Assembly: GCA_026706485.1 (NCBI GenBank)
Contig: JAPOYR010000011.1
Coordinates: 186,001 to 250,000, forward strand
Source: Chloroflexota bacterium
Lineage (GTDB): Bacteria; Chloroflexota; UBA11872
Direction of reading: 5' to 3'
DNA length: 64,000 nt
In this document: positions 15,755-31,281 of the stretch, in pieces
How the letters are laid out: each line of letters starts with the position of its first letter
Numbering within the stretch: the first letter of the stretch is position 1
The notes under the pieces: generated by a model
The model's database searches: none
Told to the model about the DNA's origin: nothing
What the model saw: only the letters and a program-made list of their open reading frames with translations
Translations under genes and position numbers: made by a program

Positions 15755-17068
15755 CTAGGGCTCCATCGCCAGCATCGTCGGCCGCTGGAGCGCATCGACA
15801 ACCGAGGACAGGAAGCGCGCGCCGTTGGCGCCGTCGAGCGCCCGATGATCGAACGACAGCGAGAGCGGCAGCATGAGGCGTGTTTGCATCGCGTCGTTGT
15901 GAATCGTCGCGCGTGGAACGGCGCGGCCGACGCCCAGGATGCCCACCTCGGGCGGGTTCACGATCGGGGTGAAGAATCCGGTCCCCAGCCCGCCGAGGTT
16001 GCTGATGGTGAAGGTCGCGCCCTGCATCTCGTCCGGCGTCAGCTTGCCGGCGCGCGCCCGCTCGGCAATGCCGGTCAACTCTGCCGCGATTTCGATCACG
16101 CCTTTGGTGTCCACGTCACGGATTACGGGCACCAGCAGCCCGCGCTCGGTATCGGCCGCCACGCCCAGGTGGAAGTAGCCCTTCCGCACGATCTCGCCGG
16201 CGGCCAGGTCCAGGCTGGCGTTGAGCTCGGGATGCGCCTTCAGCGTCGCCGCGACCACCGGCAGGATGAAGGCCGTGATCGTGAGCTTGGCGCCTCGGGC
16301 CGCGGCACGCGCCTTGTACTCGGCGCGCAGCGCCTCGACATCGGTCACGTCGGCCTCTTGGAACAGCGTGACGTGCGGAATCGTGGTCCACGACCGCGAT
16401 AGATTGTCGGCCAGCGTCCGTCGCAGGCGGCTCAGGCGCACGCGCTCGATGGGTCCCCATTGGGCGAAGTCGGGCAGCGGCGGCGCGATGTCCGGCGCGG
16501 GCGCCGCGGGTCGACGGCGCGCATGCGCCTTGACGTCATCCATGGAGATCCGGCCGCCAGGGCCTGAGCCCTCGACCTGGCGCACGTCCACACCGATTTC
16601 CCGCGCGAAGATCCGCACCGACGGCGCCGCGGCCACCGGCCGGCCGTCGGCCTCGACTTCGGCGTCTGCGAAGGGCGGCGCCACGTGAACGTCCGGGCCG
16701 GCGCTTGCCGGCTCCGGTTCGATCCCCGAGCGGCGCGCCGCAGCCTCGGCGCCGTCGGCGGGTGGCCCTGGCGCCTCGTCGACCTGAGGCTGGGCCTCCG
16801 ATGCCGCCTCGGCCGGCGGCGTCTCCGCGCCCTCAGGTTCCAGCGTGAGCACCGGCTCGCCCACGGCGATCGTGTCGCCCGATTTCACGTGAATTCCGGT
16901 GACGGTGCCTGCGGCGTCCGTGGGCACCTCCAACGTGGCCTTCTCGCTCTCGATCTCGATCACCGAGTCGCCGGCGTCCACCACCTGGCCCACACTCACC
17001 AGCACGCTGAGTACGTCGGCTTCTTCGATTCCCTCGCCGAGGTCCGGCAGGCGCAGGTCGACGCTCAT
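15755..17068 (-). CDS. aceF: Pyruvate dehydrogenase E2, dihydrolipoamide acetyltransferase
   Basis: 437 residues with three parts. A single N-terminal lipoyl domain (~1-78) has the lipoylated Lys in EIESEKATLEVPT. An Ala/Pro/Glu linker follows, then a peripheral-subunit-binding domain (~150-185; REIGVDVRQVEGSGPGGRISMDDV), a second linker, and the catalytic acyltransferase core ending with the active-site motif SFDHRALDGANGARFL. It moves the acetyl group from E1 to CoA. It sits between aceE (43 bp upstream) and lpd (6 bp downstream), which supports pyruvate rather than branched-chain keto acids as substrate. Confidence 0.94.
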   Translation of the reverse strand: MSVDLRLPDLGEGIEEADVLSVLVSVGQVVDAGDSVIEIESEKATLEVPTDAAGTVTGIHVKSGDTIAVGEPVLTLEPEGAETPPAEAASEAQPQVDEAPGPPADGAEAAARRSGIEPEPASAGPDVHVAPPFADAEVEADGRPVAAAPSVRIFAREIGVDVRQVEGSGPGGRISMDDVKAHARRRPAAPAPDIAPPLPDFAQWGPIERVRLSRLRRTLADNLSRSWTTIPHVTLFQEADVTDVEALRAEYKARAAARGAKLTITAFILPVVAATLKAHPELNASLDLAAGEIVRKGYFHLGVAADTERGLLVPVIRDVDTKGVIEIAAELTGIAERARAGKLTPDEMQGATFTISNLGGLGTGFFTPIVNPPEVGILGVGRAVPRATIHNDAMQTRLMLPLSLSFDHRALDGANGARFLSSVVDALQRPTMLAMEP

Positions 17069-17111
17069 GGCCGGCGCCGCACGTCGCCCGCACCCGGGTC
17101 TGTCGCTCGCA

Positions 17112-19811
17112 TCAGCTCAGCCGCGGATTCGGTTTCTCGGCGTCGATGCCCAGGTCCTCGATCGCCTCGGATACCAGTTCACTGTCAATTCGGCTTTCTC
17201 GCGCCAGCGCGTGCAGCGTCGCCAGAGTCACGAAGCGAGCATCAACCTCGAAGAAGTCGCGCAGGGCCGCGCGCGTATCGCTGCGCCCGAAACCGTCGGT
17301 GCCCAGCGCCACCAGCCGACCCGGAACCCATTTGGCAATCAGGTCCGGCAGCGACTTCATGTAGTCGGAGGCGGCCACGACCACGTCGGGCGCATTCGCC
17401 AGGCAATTTGCCACGTATGACGTGCGCGGCGTCCGGTCTGGATGCAGCATGTTCCAGCGGTCGGCGTCCAGCGCCTCCCGGCGCAGCTCGGTGTAGCTCG
17501 TCACCGACCACACGTCCGCCGCCACGCCGTAACGCGCCGCCAACATCTCCTGCGCCTCGAGCACCTCGTTGAGGATCGCGCCGCTTCCCAACAGCGTGGC
17601 GCGCGGCTGGCCGGGCGCCGCATCGGCGGCACGCAGGCGATACATGCCCTTGAGAATGCCCTCCCGCACTCCGTCGTCCGCCGGCAGGCTCGGGTGCGGA
17701 TACGCCTCGTTGCCCAGGGTGAGGTAGTAGAACACGTCCTCATCCTGCTCGTGCATGCGGCGGATGCCCTCGCGGATGATCACCGCGATTTCATAGGCAA
17801 ACGCGGGATCGTAGGCCAGGCACGTCGGCACCACCGAAAACAAGAGATGGCTGTGGCCGTCCTGGTGCTGCAAGCCTTCGCCCGCCAACGTCGTCCGTCC
17901 CGCGGTGGCGCCCAACAGGAATCCACGCGTCCTTGCATCGGCCGCGGCCCAGACAAGGTCGCCAACGCGCTGAAAGCCGAACATCGAGTAGTAGATGAAG
18001 AACGGCAATGTAGCGACGCCATAGGTCGCGTGGGAAGTCCCGGCGGCGATAAACGAGCTCATCGCTCCCGCCTCGGCGATCCCTTCCTCCAGGATCTGGC
18101 CGTCGGTGGCCTCCTTGTAGTAGAGGAGCGACGCCGAATCGACCGGCTCATAGAGCTGTCCCACGGCCGAGTAGATGCCGACCTGACGGAACAGCGCCTC
18201 CATGCCGAAGGTGCGGGCTTCGTCGGGCACGATCGGAACGACGCGCGGACCCAGCGCCGGATCGCGCAGCAGTTTGGACAGCATGCGCACGAACGCCATG
18301 GTCGTGGAGGCGGGCCGCTCGCTCCCGGCCTCGAATTCGGCGAAGCCGTCTGCCGGCGGAGTCGAGATCTGGCTCTTCTCCGCCCGGCGCATGGGCATGA
18401 ATCCGCCGAGCTCCTCGCGGCGGACGGTCAGATAGCGGACTTCGCGACTGTCGGGCCCCGGGCGGTAAAGCGGGGCGCGACCGAGGTCCTCATCGGAAAT
18501 CGGGATCTTGAAACGATCGCGGAACGTCAGCAGCTCGTCCTCGTTCAGCTGCTTCTGCTGATGCGTCACGTTGCGGCCTTCGCCGGCCTCGCCGAGCCCG
18601 TAGCCCTTGATCGTGCGGGCCAGCACGACCGTCGGGGCGCCCTTATGGCGCACGGCCGCATTGAAGGCTGCGTAGACCTTGCGCGCGTCGTGTCCGCCAA
18701 GGTTCATTCGCACCAGCTCGTCGTCGCTGCGGTCGGCCACCATGGCCAACAGCCGCTCATCCACCCCGTAGAAGTTCTCGCGGATGTAGGCCCCGCCGGC
18801 CACGCTGTATTTCTGGTACTCACCGTCGACGATTTGACCCGCGCGGCGGGTGAGCAGGCCGTCGCGATCGTTCGCGAACAGCTCGTCCCAATCGCGGCCC
18901 CACAGGACCTTGATCACGTTCCAGCCGGCGCCGCGAAACAGCCCTTCCAACTCCTGCACGATGTTGCCATTGCCGCGCACCGGGCCGTCCAGACGCTGCA
19001 GGTTGCAGTTGACCACCCAGGTGAGGTTGTCCAGGTACTCGCGCCCGGCGAGGGAGATTGCCGCGATGGTCTCCGGCGCGTCGGCTTCGCCGTCGCCCAC
19101 GAAGGCCCACACCCGCTGGTCGGAGGGCTGCTTCAGCCCCCGATCCTCCAGGTAGCGCATGAACCGCGCCTGGTAGATCGACATCAGCGGGCCCAAGCCC
19201 ATGGACACTGTGGGGAACTGCCAGAAATCGGGCATGAGCCAGGGATGCGGGTACGACGAGACGCCGCCGCTGGGCATGAGCTCACGCCGAAAGTCGTGGA
19301 TTTGCTCGGCGGTCAGTCGACCCTCGAGATACGCCCGCGCATAGATGCCCGGCGCCGCGTGGCCCTGGAAATAGATGATGTCCGGCCCCTCGGGGTGATC
19401 CGGCCCGCGGAAGAAGTGGTTGAAGCCGACCTCGTAGAGCGTCGCCGCCGACGCATAGGTGGAGATGTGCCCGCCGATGCCGTCTGCCTCGCGATTCGCG
19501 GCCACCACCATGGCCATCGCGTTCCAGCGAATGATGCTGCGAATCTGCCATTCGAGCGCCTCATCGCCGGGATAGGCCGGCTCGCGCTCCGGCGGAATGG
19601 AGTTGGCATAGGGCGTGCGCGCGGTGACCGGTAGCACGCCGCCGGCTCGCTGCGCGTGGATCTGCAACTCGCGCAGCAACTCACGCACGCGCTCGTTGCC
19701 GGATAGCCGCCGCACGTCGTGCAGCGCGTCCAGCCAGTCTCGCGTCTCGACCGCGTCAGCGCCCTGACCGCCGTTCAAGACGCCGTCGCGGTGGGTGTCT
19801 AGCTGTGCCAT
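17112..19811 (-). CDS. aceE: Pyruvate dehydrogenase E1, homodimeric type
   Basis: 899 residues, the usual length of the single-chain E. coli-type E1. It has the ThDP/Mg motif GDGEADAPETIAAIS...NCNLQRLDGPVRGN in the first half, the early RWNAMAMVVAANR region and the GEGLQHQDGHSH loop in the second half. It decarboxylates pyruvate and acetylates the lipoyl arm of E2. Head of the aceE-E2-lpd block; lipA and lipB, needed to lipoylate E2, lie directly upstream on the same strand, separated by 155 bp that may carry a promoter. Confidence 0.97.
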   Translation of the reverse strand: MAQLDTHRDGVLNGGQGADAVETRDWLDALHDVRRLSGNERVRELLRELQIHAQRAGGVLPVTARTPYANSIPPEREPAYPGDEALEWQIRSIIRWNAMAMVVAANREADGIGGHISTYASAATLYEVGFNHFFRGPDHPEGPDIIYFQGHAAPGIYARAYLEGRLTAEQIHDFRRELMPSGGVSSYPHPWLMPDFWQFPTVSMGLGPLMSIYQARFMRYLEDRGLKQPSDQRVWAFVGDGEADAPETIAAISLAGREYLDNLTWVVNCNLQRLDGPVRGNGNIVQELEGLFRGAGWNVIKVLWGRDWDELFANDRDGLLTRRAGQIVDGEYQKYSVAGGAYIRENFYGVDERLLAMVADRSDDELVRMNLGGHDARKVYAAFNAAVRHKGAPTVVLARTIKGYGLGEAGEGRNVTHQQKQLNEDELLTFRDRFKIPISDEDLGRAPLYRPGPDSREVRYLTVRREELGGFMPMRRAEKSQISTPPADGFAEFEAGSERPASTTMAFVRMLSKLLRDPALGPRVVPIVPDEARTFGMEALFRQVGIYSAVGQLYEPVDSASLLYYKEATDGQILEEGIAEAGAMSSFIAAGTSHATYGVATLPFFIYYSMFGFQRVGDLVWAAADARTRGFLLGATAGRTTLAGEGLQHQDGHSHLLFSVVPTCLAYDPAFAYEIAVIIREGIRRMHEQDEDVFYYLTLGNEAYPHPSLPADDGVREGILKGMYRLRAADAAPGQPRATLLGSGAILNEVLEAQEMLAARYGVAADVWSVTSYTELRREALDADRWNMLHPDRTPRTSYVANCLANAPDVVVAASDYMKSLPDLIAKWVPGRLVALGTDGFGRSDTRAALRDFFEVDARFVTLATLHALARESRIDSELVSEAIEDLGIDAEKPNPRLS

Positions 19812-19966
19812 GGGCTCCGCCTAGAGACTACGCAAGGGTAGTACGCCCGGCGCTGGGCGCTTTGCGAACTGCCAGACGGTCGGCATTGGCCTGGCGCTTC
19901 ACGCGGCCGCTCGGCCGCAGCGAGGCGCCTCCGGCGGGACAAGCGTGCCACGCCGGGCTCGGTTGT

Positions 19967-20852
<886 letters not shown>

Positions 20853-20863
<11 letters not shown>

Positions 20864-21539
20864 TGGCAAGGGCCTTGTCCGCGGCAACGTCCCGCAACGC
20901 TACATCGAACGTCTGCGCGAAGGCGGTGATGAATGCCTCCTTGGCGGCCTCGTGATCGGGCGCGGCCCCACAGTAGCGCTCCACGGACGTGATGCCCGCG
21001 TCCTGGATGCCGCAGGGCACGATGGCCTCGAAGGCCGCCAGGTCCGGCGCGAGGTTGAGCGCGATGCCGTGCATGCTCACCCCGCCGCGTACGTGCACCC
21101 CCAGCGCGGCGATCTTGTCGTTGCCCACCCACACGCCGGGCAGGCTCTTCCGCGGCGCCGCGGGCACGCCGAGCGCGGCCAGGGTGGTCACCAGCGTTTG
21201 CTCCAGGCCCCGAACGAAGCTGATCGGGTAGATGCCGCGGCGGCGCAGGTCCAGGATCGGATAGGCCACCAGCTGGCCCGGACCGTGATAGGTCACGTCG
21301 CCCCCGCGTTCGACGTCAACGACCTCGACCCCCTGGGCCGCCAGCCGCTCCGGCAACGCCAGCAAGTTCGCCGGGTCGCTGCGGCGGCCGCAGGTGTACA
21401 CCGGCGGATGCTCCAGCAGCGCAAGCGCCTCCGCCGCCGTGCCGGCGCGAACGTCGTCCGCGCGCGCCTGCTGCCAGGCCCACGCGTCGCGATAGGCCAC
21501 CCGGCCCGGTCGGTGCACATCGACGGTGGTCGACACCAT
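20853..21539 (-). CDS. lipB: Octanoyl-[acyl carrier protein]:protein N-octanoyltransferase
   Basis: 228 residues. Family motifs are YTCGRRSD, RGGDVTYHGPGQLVAYPILDL and GVWVGNDKIAALGVHV, with the active-site Lys in DKIAA and the Cys in VPCGIQDAGITS. LipB moves octanoate from ACP to the lipoyl domain; LipA then completes the cofactor. ATG 21539 puts the first conserved residues near the N-terminus; a longer frame starting at 21584 is not needed. First gene of the lipB-lipA pair. Confidence 0.94.
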
Positions 21540-21618
21540 GACCCGAGCGTACCCACCACGTCGAACCGATCCAAGCCCCGCCAAGGTCTCGAATTACGGC
21601 AAGTGAAGCGGGCGGGCG

Positions 21619-23031
21619 CTAAATCCCCGCCAACTGCGCGAATTGCAGCTCCGTCGGCTCGGCGCAGCAGAACCAGGCCTCGGTGAGCCTTGGCCGCGCC
21701 GCCGCGCGCTCGGCGTTGACGAGGACGTCGCGCGCACGTCCGTCGGCGGCTGCTCCGGCAGCGTCGATCACAGCCGCCCGCACGGCGGCATAGGACGTGG
21801 CAATATCCGTGTCCTCGTCGGCAAGGTTCGCCACCAACGTCGCGAGCTCTGCCTGGAGCGCATCGACCGCCGGGTCGGCCGCCTGCCACGTATAGCTGAG
21901 CTGCGCCTCGTCGTACGCCCCCAGGTGGCGTTGCATGTCGGGCAGATCGAGCAGCAGCGACCCCTTGGGCAGCAAGAGCCGAATGCTGTACTGCACCGGA
22001 TCGACGTTCCCCACGAGGTCGTGCCGCGCGACGAAATCGAGAATGTCCAGCACGTCGGTGAAGGTCGTCCATGGCGTGAACGGCAGCCAGGAGGGCCGCG
22101 TCTCGATGCCATGGCGGCGAAGCAGGGTGATCGCCTGCTCGGCCTCGGCGGCCACGTGACCCTTGTCCAGGCACTCCAGGATCTCGTCGTTGAGCGACTC
22201 GAACGCCGAGATGACGAACAGGCACCCCGCGTCGGCGAATTCGGGCCACACTTGGGCGTGCTCCAGGATGTGCTCGACCTTGGTCGTGCAATCGAATGTG
22301 AGTTCCGGAAACCGCGCGTGCATGGTGCGCACCACCTTGCGCGAGTGGCGCCAGCCGTTGAGGAAGTCCGGATCGCCGAAGGTGATGTGGCGCGCGCCCG
22401 CATCGACCAGCCGCGCAATGTCGTCCAGCACGGTGTCCGCGCCGACGATGCGAATGCGTCCGTCATAGACCACCGGCACCGGACAGTGGCGGCACTTGTG
22501 GACGCAGCCGTGACTGGCCTCGACATAGCCCGCCAGACGCTCTTCGCCGTCCACGGCAAGCCGCGCATAGCGGTCGATCGGCGGCAGCAGCTCGCGCGCC
22601 GGGGCGTGAAAGTCGTGTTTGGTGAGTTGGATGACCTCCGGGACAACGCTGGGCGTCCCGTTCGCGCCCGCCAGGGCATCCACCCAGGCGACGAGCTCCG
22701 GCTCGTACTCCCCGGCAAGCGCGCGGTCCATGGAATGGCTCGGGTCCAGCGCCGGCGCCATCTCGCCATAGAGGCCGTAGAAGCAAATGGGAACGTCCGG
22801 GTGCGTGCGACGCGCCGCCTGCGCGGCGCTCACGGCAATGCGCATGGCCGTGTGCATCGGAACGGAAAACGCCAGCGCGTCGATGCCGTCCAGCGCGTCC
22901 GGGTCCCACATCTCGACGGCCAGATCCATCGCGTGCACCTGATGACCCGCCGCCTGCAGCGCCGCGGCCGGCGACGCCGCATGCACGGGCTGGTGCCCGA
23001 GCTCGTAGGTCGAGACGATCAACACCCGCAT
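21619..23031 (-). CDS. B12-binding/radical SAM protein with a CCAEP tail
   Basis: 470 residues: an N-terminal cobalamin-binding-like Rossmann domain (~1-150; starts MRVLIVSTYELGHQPVH), a radical SAM domain with CVHKCRHC as the 4Fe-4S motif in mid protein, and a C-terminal end with WFCCAEP at residues 453-459. From memory this matches a family known as CUAEP/CCAEP-tail radical SAM proteins, in which some members have selenocysteine in the tail; the function is unknown. The start ATG overlaps the stop of the upstream ATP-grasp gene (ATGA), so the two are translationally coupled and likely act on one substrate. Confidence 0.85.
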   Translation of the reverse strand: MRVLIVSTYELGHQPVHAASPAAALQAAGHQVHAMDLAVEMWDPDALDGIDALAFSVPMHTAMRIAVSAAQAARRTHPDVPICFYGLYGEMAPALDPSHSMDRALAGEYEPELVAWVDALAGANGTPSVVPEVIQLTKHDFHAPARELLPPIDRYARLAVDGEERLAGYVEASHGCVHKCRHCPVPVVYDGRIRIVGADTVLDDIARLVDAGARHITFGDPDFLNGWRHSRKVVRTMHARFPELTFDCTTKVEHILEHAQVWPEFADAGCLFVISAFESLNDEILECLDKGHVAAEAEQAITLLRRHGIETRPSWLPFTPWTTFTDVLDILDFVARHDLVGNVDPVQYSIRLLLPKGSLLLDLPDMQRHLGAYDEAQLSYTWQAADPAVDALQAELATLVANLADEDTDIATSYAAVRAAVIDAAGAAADGRARDVLVNAERAAARPRLTEAWFCCAEPTELQFAQLAGI

Positions 23032-24299
23032 CAGCGTCCCGCCTCCGAAGCCTCCGTGCCGCGCCGCCTCGGCGCGCGGTCCGGATCGATCTCAACCTCA
23101 AGCTTCGCATGCGCGCGCCGCAGGGCCGACTCGACGGCATCGGGAGTGTCACCCCGAGCAAACATGAAGCCAAGATAGCGGTCGCCCTCCGGCAGCGGCT
23201 CGACCCAGCCGCCCGGCGCGATCGTGATCTCCAGCCCCACGATGCCGGGAAGATCCAGCGCCGCCTCGCGCCCGCGCACCTCGACCAGCACGCCGGCCCG
23301 GGGAATGAGCAGCATCATCACGCCCGACGCGGCGTGCGCGGCCGTGGTGTCTCGCAGCGGCAGGTTCAGCGCGTGGCGCAGGATCAGCGACTCCAGCGAC
23401 ACGCCCAGCCCGAATCGCAGCGATCGCGCGCAGAGGCCGCCGATGGAGCGCGCGGCAACCTCGATCACTGTGGCGGCGTCGCCGTCCACACGAATCTCGG
23501 CATGAACCGGACCTTCGGTCAGGCCCAGCCCCACGACGGCCGCGCTCGTCACTTCCTCAACCGCACGCTGAACCTCGCCGGGGAGGCGAGATGGCGTGAT
23601 GTAAAGCGTTTCCTCGAAGTAGGGGCCGTCGAGCGGATCCGGCTTGTCGAAGATGGCCAGCGTATGCAGTGTCCCCCGTCGCAACAGACCCTCAACTGCG
23701 ATCTCCACCCCCGGCGCGAAGCGCTCGACCAGCAACGGCGCGGGCAGGCCGTCATCAGACCCGCCCAGCATCCGGCGAATTCTGGCCGCGGCGGCCGCCG
23801 CATCTGCCGGCGTGTCCGCGCGGATCACGCCGCGACTGGCTGACAACGTCAGGGGTTTGAGCACTACCGGAAATCCGAGTTCCGCCGCCGCGGCCACCGG
23901 ATCCTCGTCACCGTCAACGAGCGCAAACGCCGGCTGCAGCACGCCGGCCTGCGCCAACCGCCGGCGCATGGCGGCCTTGTCCCGCGTGAGCGCCGTCGCC
24001 GCGGGCGGACTGTGCGCCAGACCCAAACGCTCCGCCGCGAGCGACGCGGCCGCGACTCCCGCGTCATCCACCGGCACGATGGCGTTGAGCGGCGCCTCAT
24101 CCGCAAACTCCACGATGGCGTCCGCTGCGATCTCGGGGCGGTTCAGCGGCAGCTCGATCACGCGCGATGCCATCACGTCATCCAACGCGTGACGTTGCTC
24201 GGCGCCGACGACGACCTCCACGCCAAGCTCCCGCGCGGCTTCGAGAAAGTCGCTCGCGCGGTAAGCCCGTGTCGGCAGCAGTAGGAGAACCCGGCGCAT
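23031..24299 (-). CDS. ATP-grasp domain protein (carboxylate-amine ligase type)
   Basis: 422 residues of the ATP-grasp superfamily in the carbamoyl-phosphate synthase/PurK/biotin carboxylase style. It has a Rossmann-like N-domain, the central GFPVVLKPLTLSASRGV Lys strand, LVERFAPGVEIAVEG, and the Mg-binding HAEIRVDGDAATVIEVAARSIGG. Such enzymes join a carboxylate to an amine or other nucleophile through an acyl phosphate. The CCAEP-tail radical SAM gene begins inside its stop codon. ATG 24299 is used because it starts the first beta strand (RRVLLLLP). It is divergent from the Nfu gene with a 56 bp spacer. Confidence 0.85.
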   Translation of the reverse strand: MRRVLLLLPTRAYRASDFLEAARELGVEVVVGAEQRHALDDVMASRVIELPLNRPEIAADAIVEFADEAPLNAIVPVDDAGVAAASLAAERLGLAHSPPAATALTRDKAAMRRRLAQAGVLQPAFALVDGDEDPVAAAAELGFPVVLKPLTLSASRGVIRADTPADAAAAAARIRRMLGGSDDGLPAPLLVERFAPGVEIAVEGLLRRGTLHTLAIFDKPDPLDGPYFEETLYITPSRLPGEVQRAVEEVTSAAVVGLGLTEGPVHAEIRVDGDAATVIEVAARSIGGLCARSLRFGLGVSLESLILRHALNLPLRDTTAAHAASGVMMLLIPRAGVLVEVRGREAALDLPGIVGLEITIAPGGWVEPLPEGDRYLGFMFARGDTPDAVESALRRAHAKLEVEIDPDRAPRRRGTEASEAGR

Positions 24300-24355
24300 C
24301 GTCCTATGATGAACCACGAACGGACGACGCGCCGCATGCCCGCCGGATGGGGAAC

Positions 24356-25009
24356 ATGACCCTGGAACACGACACCGAAGTCTTCATAAGCGACGCCGCG
24401 CGCGACTTGGTCCTCGACTTTCGCGCGCGCTCCGACCGGCCCGACAAGGACGACCTCGCCATGTGGATCGAGGTCACCGGCATTTCGGGCGCGAGCTTCA
24501 GCTACGACATGTATCTGAAGAGCTCGAGCGACGCCGGACCCCAGGACGCGGTTGTGGAGGTCGCCGACGGGCTCAATGTGGTCGTTCCCGCCGGGAGCAC
24601 CGACCAGCTCGACGGCGCCACCATCGACTATCGCTCCGCCCCGAATGGCGGCGGCCTGTTCGTCGACAACCCCAACACCCCGAGCCCGGTTGCCGGACCG
24701 GCTGCCCGTGACGTCCCCGCGCCGCAGCTCAGCGGCGCAGTGGCGGATCAGGTCGCGCAGATTCTGGAGCAGCAGATCAATCCCGCCATCGCCGCGCACG
24801 GCGGGCACGCCGAGCTCGTCTCCGTCGAGGACGGCGCGGCCTACCTGCGGCTCAGCGGCGGTTGCCAGGGGTGCGGCATGGCGTCCGTGACCCTGACCCA
24901 GGGCATCGAGGTCGCGATTCGCGAGGCCGTGCCCGAAGTCACGCGGGTGATCGACGTGACCGATCACGCCTCGGGCACCAATCCATACTTCGAGGCGTCG
25001 AAGAAGTAG
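24356..25009 (+). CDS. Nfu-type iron-sulfur cluster carrier (degenerate A-type domain + NifU domain)
   Basis: 217 residues. The N-terminal ~105 resemble the HesB/IscA fold as in NfuA (ATIDYRS, then GLFVDNPNTPSP) but lack the A-type cysteines. The C-terminal ~80 form a NifU domain with the cluster-binding CQGC. It would deliver 4Fe-4S clusters to client enzymes; lipA and the radical SAM protein next door are plausible clients, by inference. ATG 24356 is preferred; an in-frame ATG at 24347 adds three residues. Divergent from the ATP-grasp/radical SAM pair. Confidence 0.88.
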   Translation: MTLEHDTEVFISDAARDLVLDFRARSDRPDKDDLAMWIEVTGISGASFSYDMYLKSSSDAGPQDAVVEVADGLNVVVPAGSTDQLDGATIDYRSAPNGGGLFVDNPNTPSPVAGPAARDVPAPQLSGAVADQVAQILEQQINPAIAAHGGHAELVSVEDGAAYLRLSGGCQGCGMASVTLTQGIEVAIREAVPEVTRVIDVTDHASGTNPYFEASKK

Positions 25010-31063: not shown

Positions 31064-31173
31064 GGCTGGGGTGGGGATCCTGCATAGATGTCTTCGGTGT
31101 GGCGGCTCGGCGTCCTACCGCCGCTCCACGCGACGCCCCGCCGTGTCGTATCCTTTAGATGTCCTGATTGATC

Positions 31174-31263
<90 letters not shown>

Positions 31264-31281
31264 CGTTCACCGCGTTGGCTG

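Follow-up and report, generated by a model that had tools for sequence, protein, structure and literature searches.

Arsinothricin is an arsenic antibiotic. In E. coli, the radical SAM enzyme ArsL has been found to convert As(III) to hydroxyarsinothricin on its own (PMC8552651). The proposal is that SAM is cleaved to a 3-amino-3-carboxypropyl (ACP) radical which then attacks As(III) (PMC8552651; JACS 2024 cited in PMC12159101). ACP radicals are likewise used by Dph1-Dph2 in diphthamide formation (PMC11048331). Among the L-amino acid ligases, BL00235 has Met-Gly and Met-Met as its products (PMC6920838). The initial annotation of the locus described here overlooked that the radical SAM protein is homologous to ArsL, that the ATP-grasp protein is of the L-amino acid ligase type and that plasmids bear parallel clusters with ArsL and an ATP-grasp gene.

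The window, a stretch of 64,000 nucleotides from a Chloroflexota bacterium, was found to possess a radical SAM gene of 470 amino acids (21619–23031, minus strand) preceded by an ATP-grasp gene (23031–24299, minus strand). The TGA of the latter and the ATG of the former have one base in common (TGATG, 23029–23033, minus strand), as read from the sequence. At its longest the ATP-grasp ORF begins at GTG 24317, with ATG 24299 being the start backed by homologues. An intergenic region of 56 bp (24300–24355), where both promoters are presumed to lie, separates it from a divergent gene for an Nfu-like Fe-S carrier (24356–25009, plus strand), whose start at ATG 24356 is also backed by homologues; the divergent ligase–Nfu pair recurs in unlinked loci. 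This layout agrees with that given in the initial annotation. The Nfu-like protein has a degenerate A-type domain and a NifU C-terminal domain (PF01106, 81 bits, above cut-off) and scores 102.7 bits against the NfuA model TIGR03341, where the cut-off is 269. Each enzyme is encoded by a single copy in the genome, the second-best matches being remote family members (radical SAM protein, 23.5 bits; ligase, 31 bits). The nearest loci elsewhere belong to MAGs labelled Chloroflexi or Chloroflexota. The genes lipB and lipA lie downstream of the radical SAM gene, and the order nfu, ligase, radical SAM, lipB, lipA, PDH E1, PDH E2 (window 15755–25009) is kept in the same Chloroflexota family. Lying next to the lipoate genes, nfu may also be relevant to lipoyl synthase.

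The radical SAM protein belongs to NF040546, the family with a CUAEP/CCAEP tail, on the basis of a full-length match (561.4 bits against a cut-off of 500, residues 3–465) and of its WFCCAEP tail (residues 453–459; 21655–21675, minus strand), with no difference in kind from the family; its C-terminus reads ...EAWFCCAEPTELQFAQLAGI. The NCBIfam entry assigns no product, and neither family nor tail is named by any paper in the literature searched. The second match is ArsL (NF040542, 289 bits over residues 3–398), all remaining radical SAM models reaching at most 42 bits. This score is below the ArsL cut-off of 450 and the window tail differs from the RCCLKC of ArsL, so that the protein is not an ArsL member; it probably works like ArsL, as judged by homology over about 400 residues to the ArsL of the arsQML cluster (PMC8552651). 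When 51 CUAEP-family proteins were aligned with two ArsL proteins, 26 columns were invariant, including the cysteines C176, C180 and C183 of the CX3CX2C [4Fe-4S] motif (CVHKCRHC, residues 176–183; 22483–22506, minus strand) and the vicinal pair C455-C456 of the tail, which aligns with the CC of RCCLKC near the C-terminus of ArsL. As no further cysteine is invariant in these 53 sequences, a single cluster is expected, with no sign of an auxiliary one. However, the family differs from ArsL in ending with AEP and not LKC, in having selenocysteine variants, and at about nine otherwise conserved positions (residues 59–62, 182, 184, 292, 353, and 355) which are conserved inside the CUAEP family and consistently unlike ArsL. 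These differences agree with a related reaction that uses another acceptor; either the acceptor or the chemistry may differ.

The AlphaFold model of the protein (pLDDT 94, pTM 0.93) has a Rossmann domain and a radical SAM barrel, and its nearest structures are AprD4 (6fd2), followed by OxsB and TsrM. The overall fold is common to all of these (TM 0.55–0.66), but they share only 12–18% identity with the protein and catalyze different reactions, with OxsB and TsrM binding cobalamin. The fold is thus near both AprD4 and B12 binders. The initial description of the enzyme as B12-type holds for the fold only, with the B12-binding domain PF02310 reaching 25.6 bits where 32.1 is the gathering score. 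Cobalamin dependence was set aside, neither motif nor score supporting it. E. coli is a host without de novo B12 synthesis. Since ArsL makes hydroxyarsinothricin in this host, cobalamin is probably not needed.

Selenocysteine variants of the tail, as the initial annotation had stated for this family without an assigned product, are real. CUAEP, with UGA at the second tail cysteine (C456 in the window protein), was identified in 19 fetched loci. The scan of genome contigs, which had the peptide EAWFCCAE among its patterns, under-samples such versions. A SECIS-like hairpin, present only in the UGA versions, lies at a fixed distance past the UGA, where columns 16–22 pair with 28–34. Pairing was observed in 89% of cells in the 19 UGA versions versus 39% in 92 Cys versions, and fell to 28–52% when the partner side was slid by 1–3 bases; several changes on both sides (covariation) were seen in the UGA versions. 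A tRNA-Sec above the cut-off was detected in 33 of 34 genomes tested, the window's own genome among them (70 bits). From the UGA loci, the hairpin and the tRNA-Sec taken together it follows that the tail exchanges Cys for Sec. The window has the Cys form, although its genome appears to be Sec-capable. The tRNA-Sec of this genome lies outside the window, on the minus strand (G000:C12:93331-93424).

The ATP-grasp protein is predicted to be an L-amino acid ligase-like enzyme and a dipeptide ligase. It matches ATP-grasp_4 (94.3 bits) and LAL_C2 (69.7 bits), both above the Pfam gathering scores, and a profile of its family finds BL00235 (3vot, E 1.4e-66) and BacD (3vmm, E 1e-33), both L-amino acid ligases, as the nearest solved relatives. 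The domain order is the same as in these two enzymes, and the motifs GPYFEE...P..L and E-V-(A/G)-A-R are held in common; the window ligase differs in belonging to a subfamily of its own which is tied to the radical SAM gene. Methionine is itself an ACP thioether.

The two enzymes may form a pathway to a small amide metabolite in which ACP transfer is followed by ligase coupling, a reading to which slightly less than an even chance is given. The radical SAM enzyme, with one [4Fe-4S] cluster and no cobalamin, would convert SAM to the 3-amino-3-carboxypropyl radical, this chemistry being assigned because the nearest named family is ArsL. The target of this radical would be a soft atom or a small molecule held by the two adjacent residues (Cys-Cys or Cys-Sec) near the C-terminus, and the product a 2-aminobutyrate substituted at the gamma position, i.e., an amino acid resembling Met or Glu. 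By homology to its ligase relatives, the ATP-grasp enzyme would then activate the carboxylate of an amino acid as an acyl phosphate and join the Met/Glu-like amino acid to a second one. Nfu, or a YggX-type protein in other Chloroflexota, would supply or repair the iron-sulfur cluster. Against this pathway stand the approximately 30% identity to ArsL across which the ACP chemistry is carried over, the equal nearness of the fold to enzymes of quite different reactions (AprD4, TsrM, OxsB) and the occurrence of the ligase without a recognized radical SAM partner in 15 of 149 genomes of the Acidimicrobiia-class sample.

The pair is real, conserved and undescribed in the literature searched. The gene arrangement recurs at 85–94% identity in congeners and at 35–62% in other lineages and phyla, which is more than chance would give. 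Of the 51 CUAEP loci for which 1.4 kb or more of upstream sequence was available, 44 have the ligase in the same fetched stretch, mostly immediately upstream on the same strand, and the ligase is encoded elsewhere in 13 of the 18 genomes whose fetched radical SAM stretch was without it. Forty one relatives divide into 20 with both genes, one with the radical SAM gene alone (the draft genome G023, which has a contig of 4.4 kb), none with the ligase alone and 20 with neither. For the 149 Acidimicrobiia-class genomes the corresponding counts are 54, 1, 15, and 79 (Fisher p = 1.6e-25, a value which, as in all these co-occurrence tests, ignores shared ancestry, most genomes sampled being draft MAGs). 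The association survives both the unlinking of the genes and the reduction of genomes to about 1 Mb, six of 16 such genomes carrying both genes and 10 neither. These counts strongly indicate a single pathway, one that even a minimal genome has reason to retain, and the functional coupling put forward in the initial annotation, along with the conservation on which it would stand or fall, is borne out. The spread of the pair over many distantly related bacteria points to a real small amino-acid or dipeptide metabolite. The six genomes of about 1 Mb with both genes (G076, G084, G088, G092, G104, and G116) keep them unlinked, and in three examined (L197–L199) the ligase adjoins Nfu.

The order of the steps could be the opposite, with the ligase acting first and the radical SAM enzyme then altering the dipeptide, whether through ACP transfer, through methylation or through some other radical reaction. 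The overlapping order in the window, ligase then radical SAM, would suit this, as would the fold held in common with TsrM, MgmA and OxsB, which modify finished substrates. However, several phyla have the genes the other way round (L063, L066, L161), the substrate of ArsL is a free inorganic compound, and methylation lacks the support of a B12 motif, which makes the ligase-first order improbable.

Arsenite as the acceptor is possible and not favored by the context. Vicinal thiols bind As(III). The vicinal-Cys tail common to ArsL, the standing of ArsL as the closest characterized family, ArsB-like genes near three Ktedonobacteria-type loci, and the existence of arsenic-regulated plasmid clusters with ArsR, ArsM, an ArsL-type enzyme and an ATP-grasp protein all speak for an arsinothricin-like amino acid and its dipeptide, made for detoxification or as a bialaphos-like antibiotic. 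However, the CUAEP loci differ from those of ArsL in having Nfu and DUF169 partners and no ars genes: apart from two weak class-I methyltransferase-like matches, no homologue of arsM, arsN1, arsQ, arsC, arsH, or ArsR was found near window-type loci in the first fetched set. Arsenite efflux (acr3) was also uncorrelated with the radical SAM gene (10/55 vs 22/94 genomes, p = 0.54), and with neither an acr3 link nor an ars operon near the loci a co-occurrence with arsenic genes was rejected. Nor does an antibiotic cluster typically persist for long in genomes of about 1 Mb or stay syntenic with housekeeping genes, as this unit does. On balance the arsenite reading is considered rather unlikely.

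ArsL-type plasmid clusters which, like the window, carry an ATP-grasp gene were identified in Priestia, Pantoea, Klebsiella and Alicyclobacillus (L217, L218, L219, and L090), where its neighbors are either ArsM plus an MFS transporter or ArsR plus an aquaporin; the ArsL cluster of Pseudomonas amygdali is without one. The Alicyclobacillus ATP-grasp protein shares 26% identity with the window ligase (103 bits, BLASTP), and that of Priestia has BL00235 as its best PDB match. That an ArsL-type enzyme and an amino-acid ligase occur together in two separate families is the strongest reason for thinking that the ligase acts on what the radical SAM enzyme produces. It also suggests that the plasmid clusters make arsinothricin peptides, the prediction being that some arsinothricin clusters yield these and not the free amino acid. 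The four clusters also have a CobW-type or GTP-binding protein in common.

The Nfu association reported in the initial annotation recurs across orientations and phyla. Nfu adjoins either enzyme in several orientations (L063, L163, L164, L167, and L187) and stays with the ligase also in genomes whose radical SAM gene lies at another locus. The explanation of Nfu as a mere lipA neighbor was rejected because it stays with the ligase or the radical SAM gene also when lipA is not close by and when the orientation has changed. In Ktedonobacteria- and Chloroflexus-like loci, YggX and a formyltransferase take the place of Nfu. Both Nfu and YggX serve iron-sulfur or iron handling, which would suit a radical SAM enzyme that is sensitive to oxygen and works in aerobic hosts. 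A formyltransferase is found at the Chloroflexota CUAEP loci L150, L151, L154, L156–L159, L161, L162, and L169, several of which have a YggX-type iron protein and no Nfu.

These partners, recurring in different orientations and phyla in the case of Nfu and in other Chloroflexota in that of YggX, together with the retention of the unit in streamlined genomes, could indicate a low-molecular-weight thiol, selenol or iron-binding metabolite which supports Fe-S clusters and replaces mycothiol, bacillithiol or glutathione. However, MshC is also present in 27 of the 55 radical SAM genomes (p = 0.50), so there is no mutual exclusion and replacement of mycothiol was rejected; the negative association between the ligase and MshC is weak (p = 0.002, uncorrected for ancestry). 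Such a metabolite is thought quite improbable. Less probable still is the modification of a protein, e.g., of the linked Nfu, in a diphthamide-like manner by ACP transfer and then ATP-dependent amidation. Nfu is the most stable neighbor of the ligase and Dph1-Dph2 provides a precedent for ACP radicals (PMC11048331), but many Chloroflexota loci are without Nfu, the ligase matches free-amino-acid ligases and not protein-modifying ones, and no precursor peptide conserved across phyla was found.

The latter result comes from a search for conserved small ORFs beside copies in different phyla, in which the small ORFs seen either were confined to a single lineage of Actinobacteria or were pieces of known genes. 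A RiPP precursor-peptide system was rejected on this ground, and the initial annotation is upheld in seeing no peptide precursor; the substrate is likely to be a small molecule in free form, as it had suggested. Its wider proposal of a unit making a small amide or peptide metabolite stands as to the coupling of both enzymes and the small-molecule substrate and is unsupported as to cobalamin.

With ACP transfer followed by ligation as the preferred reading, a function-less selenoprotein family gains a near-obligate partner as well as a reaction that can be tested. The groups concerned, Chloroflexota and deep Actinobacteria, are ones whose small-molecule metabolism is little understood. A fuller version, which is regarded as doubtful, would have a widespread and long-retained pathway, kept even in Acidimicrobiia-class genomes of about 1 Mb, in which radical ACP transfer to a new acceptor, aided by a Cys-Sec tail, yields a non-proteinogenic amino acid that the ligase turns into a dipeptide for physiology and not antibiosis. 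If the preferred reading is right, radical ACP transfer would reach beyond arsenic and diphthamide and a new class of dipeptides is predicted.

Several further neighbors were observed. DUF169, for which the literature searched held nothing useful, occurs in 25 loci of Chloroflexota, Acidimicrobiia-type and Nitrospirae MAGs, and lies between both enzymes in L066. A Cys-rich protein of about 270 amino acids with no Pfam match is encoded directly downstream of the radical SAM gene in L014 (6672–7490) and 18 similar Acidimicrobiia-type loci. A convergent small ORF of about 80 amino acids with a CAECG motif, restricted to one lineage, lies 1 kb downstream in L013 and 26 other Acidimicrobiia-type loci. 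In the window itself, a TPP riboswitch (Rfam RF00059, 73.6 bits) is predicted at 31165–31280 on the plus strand.
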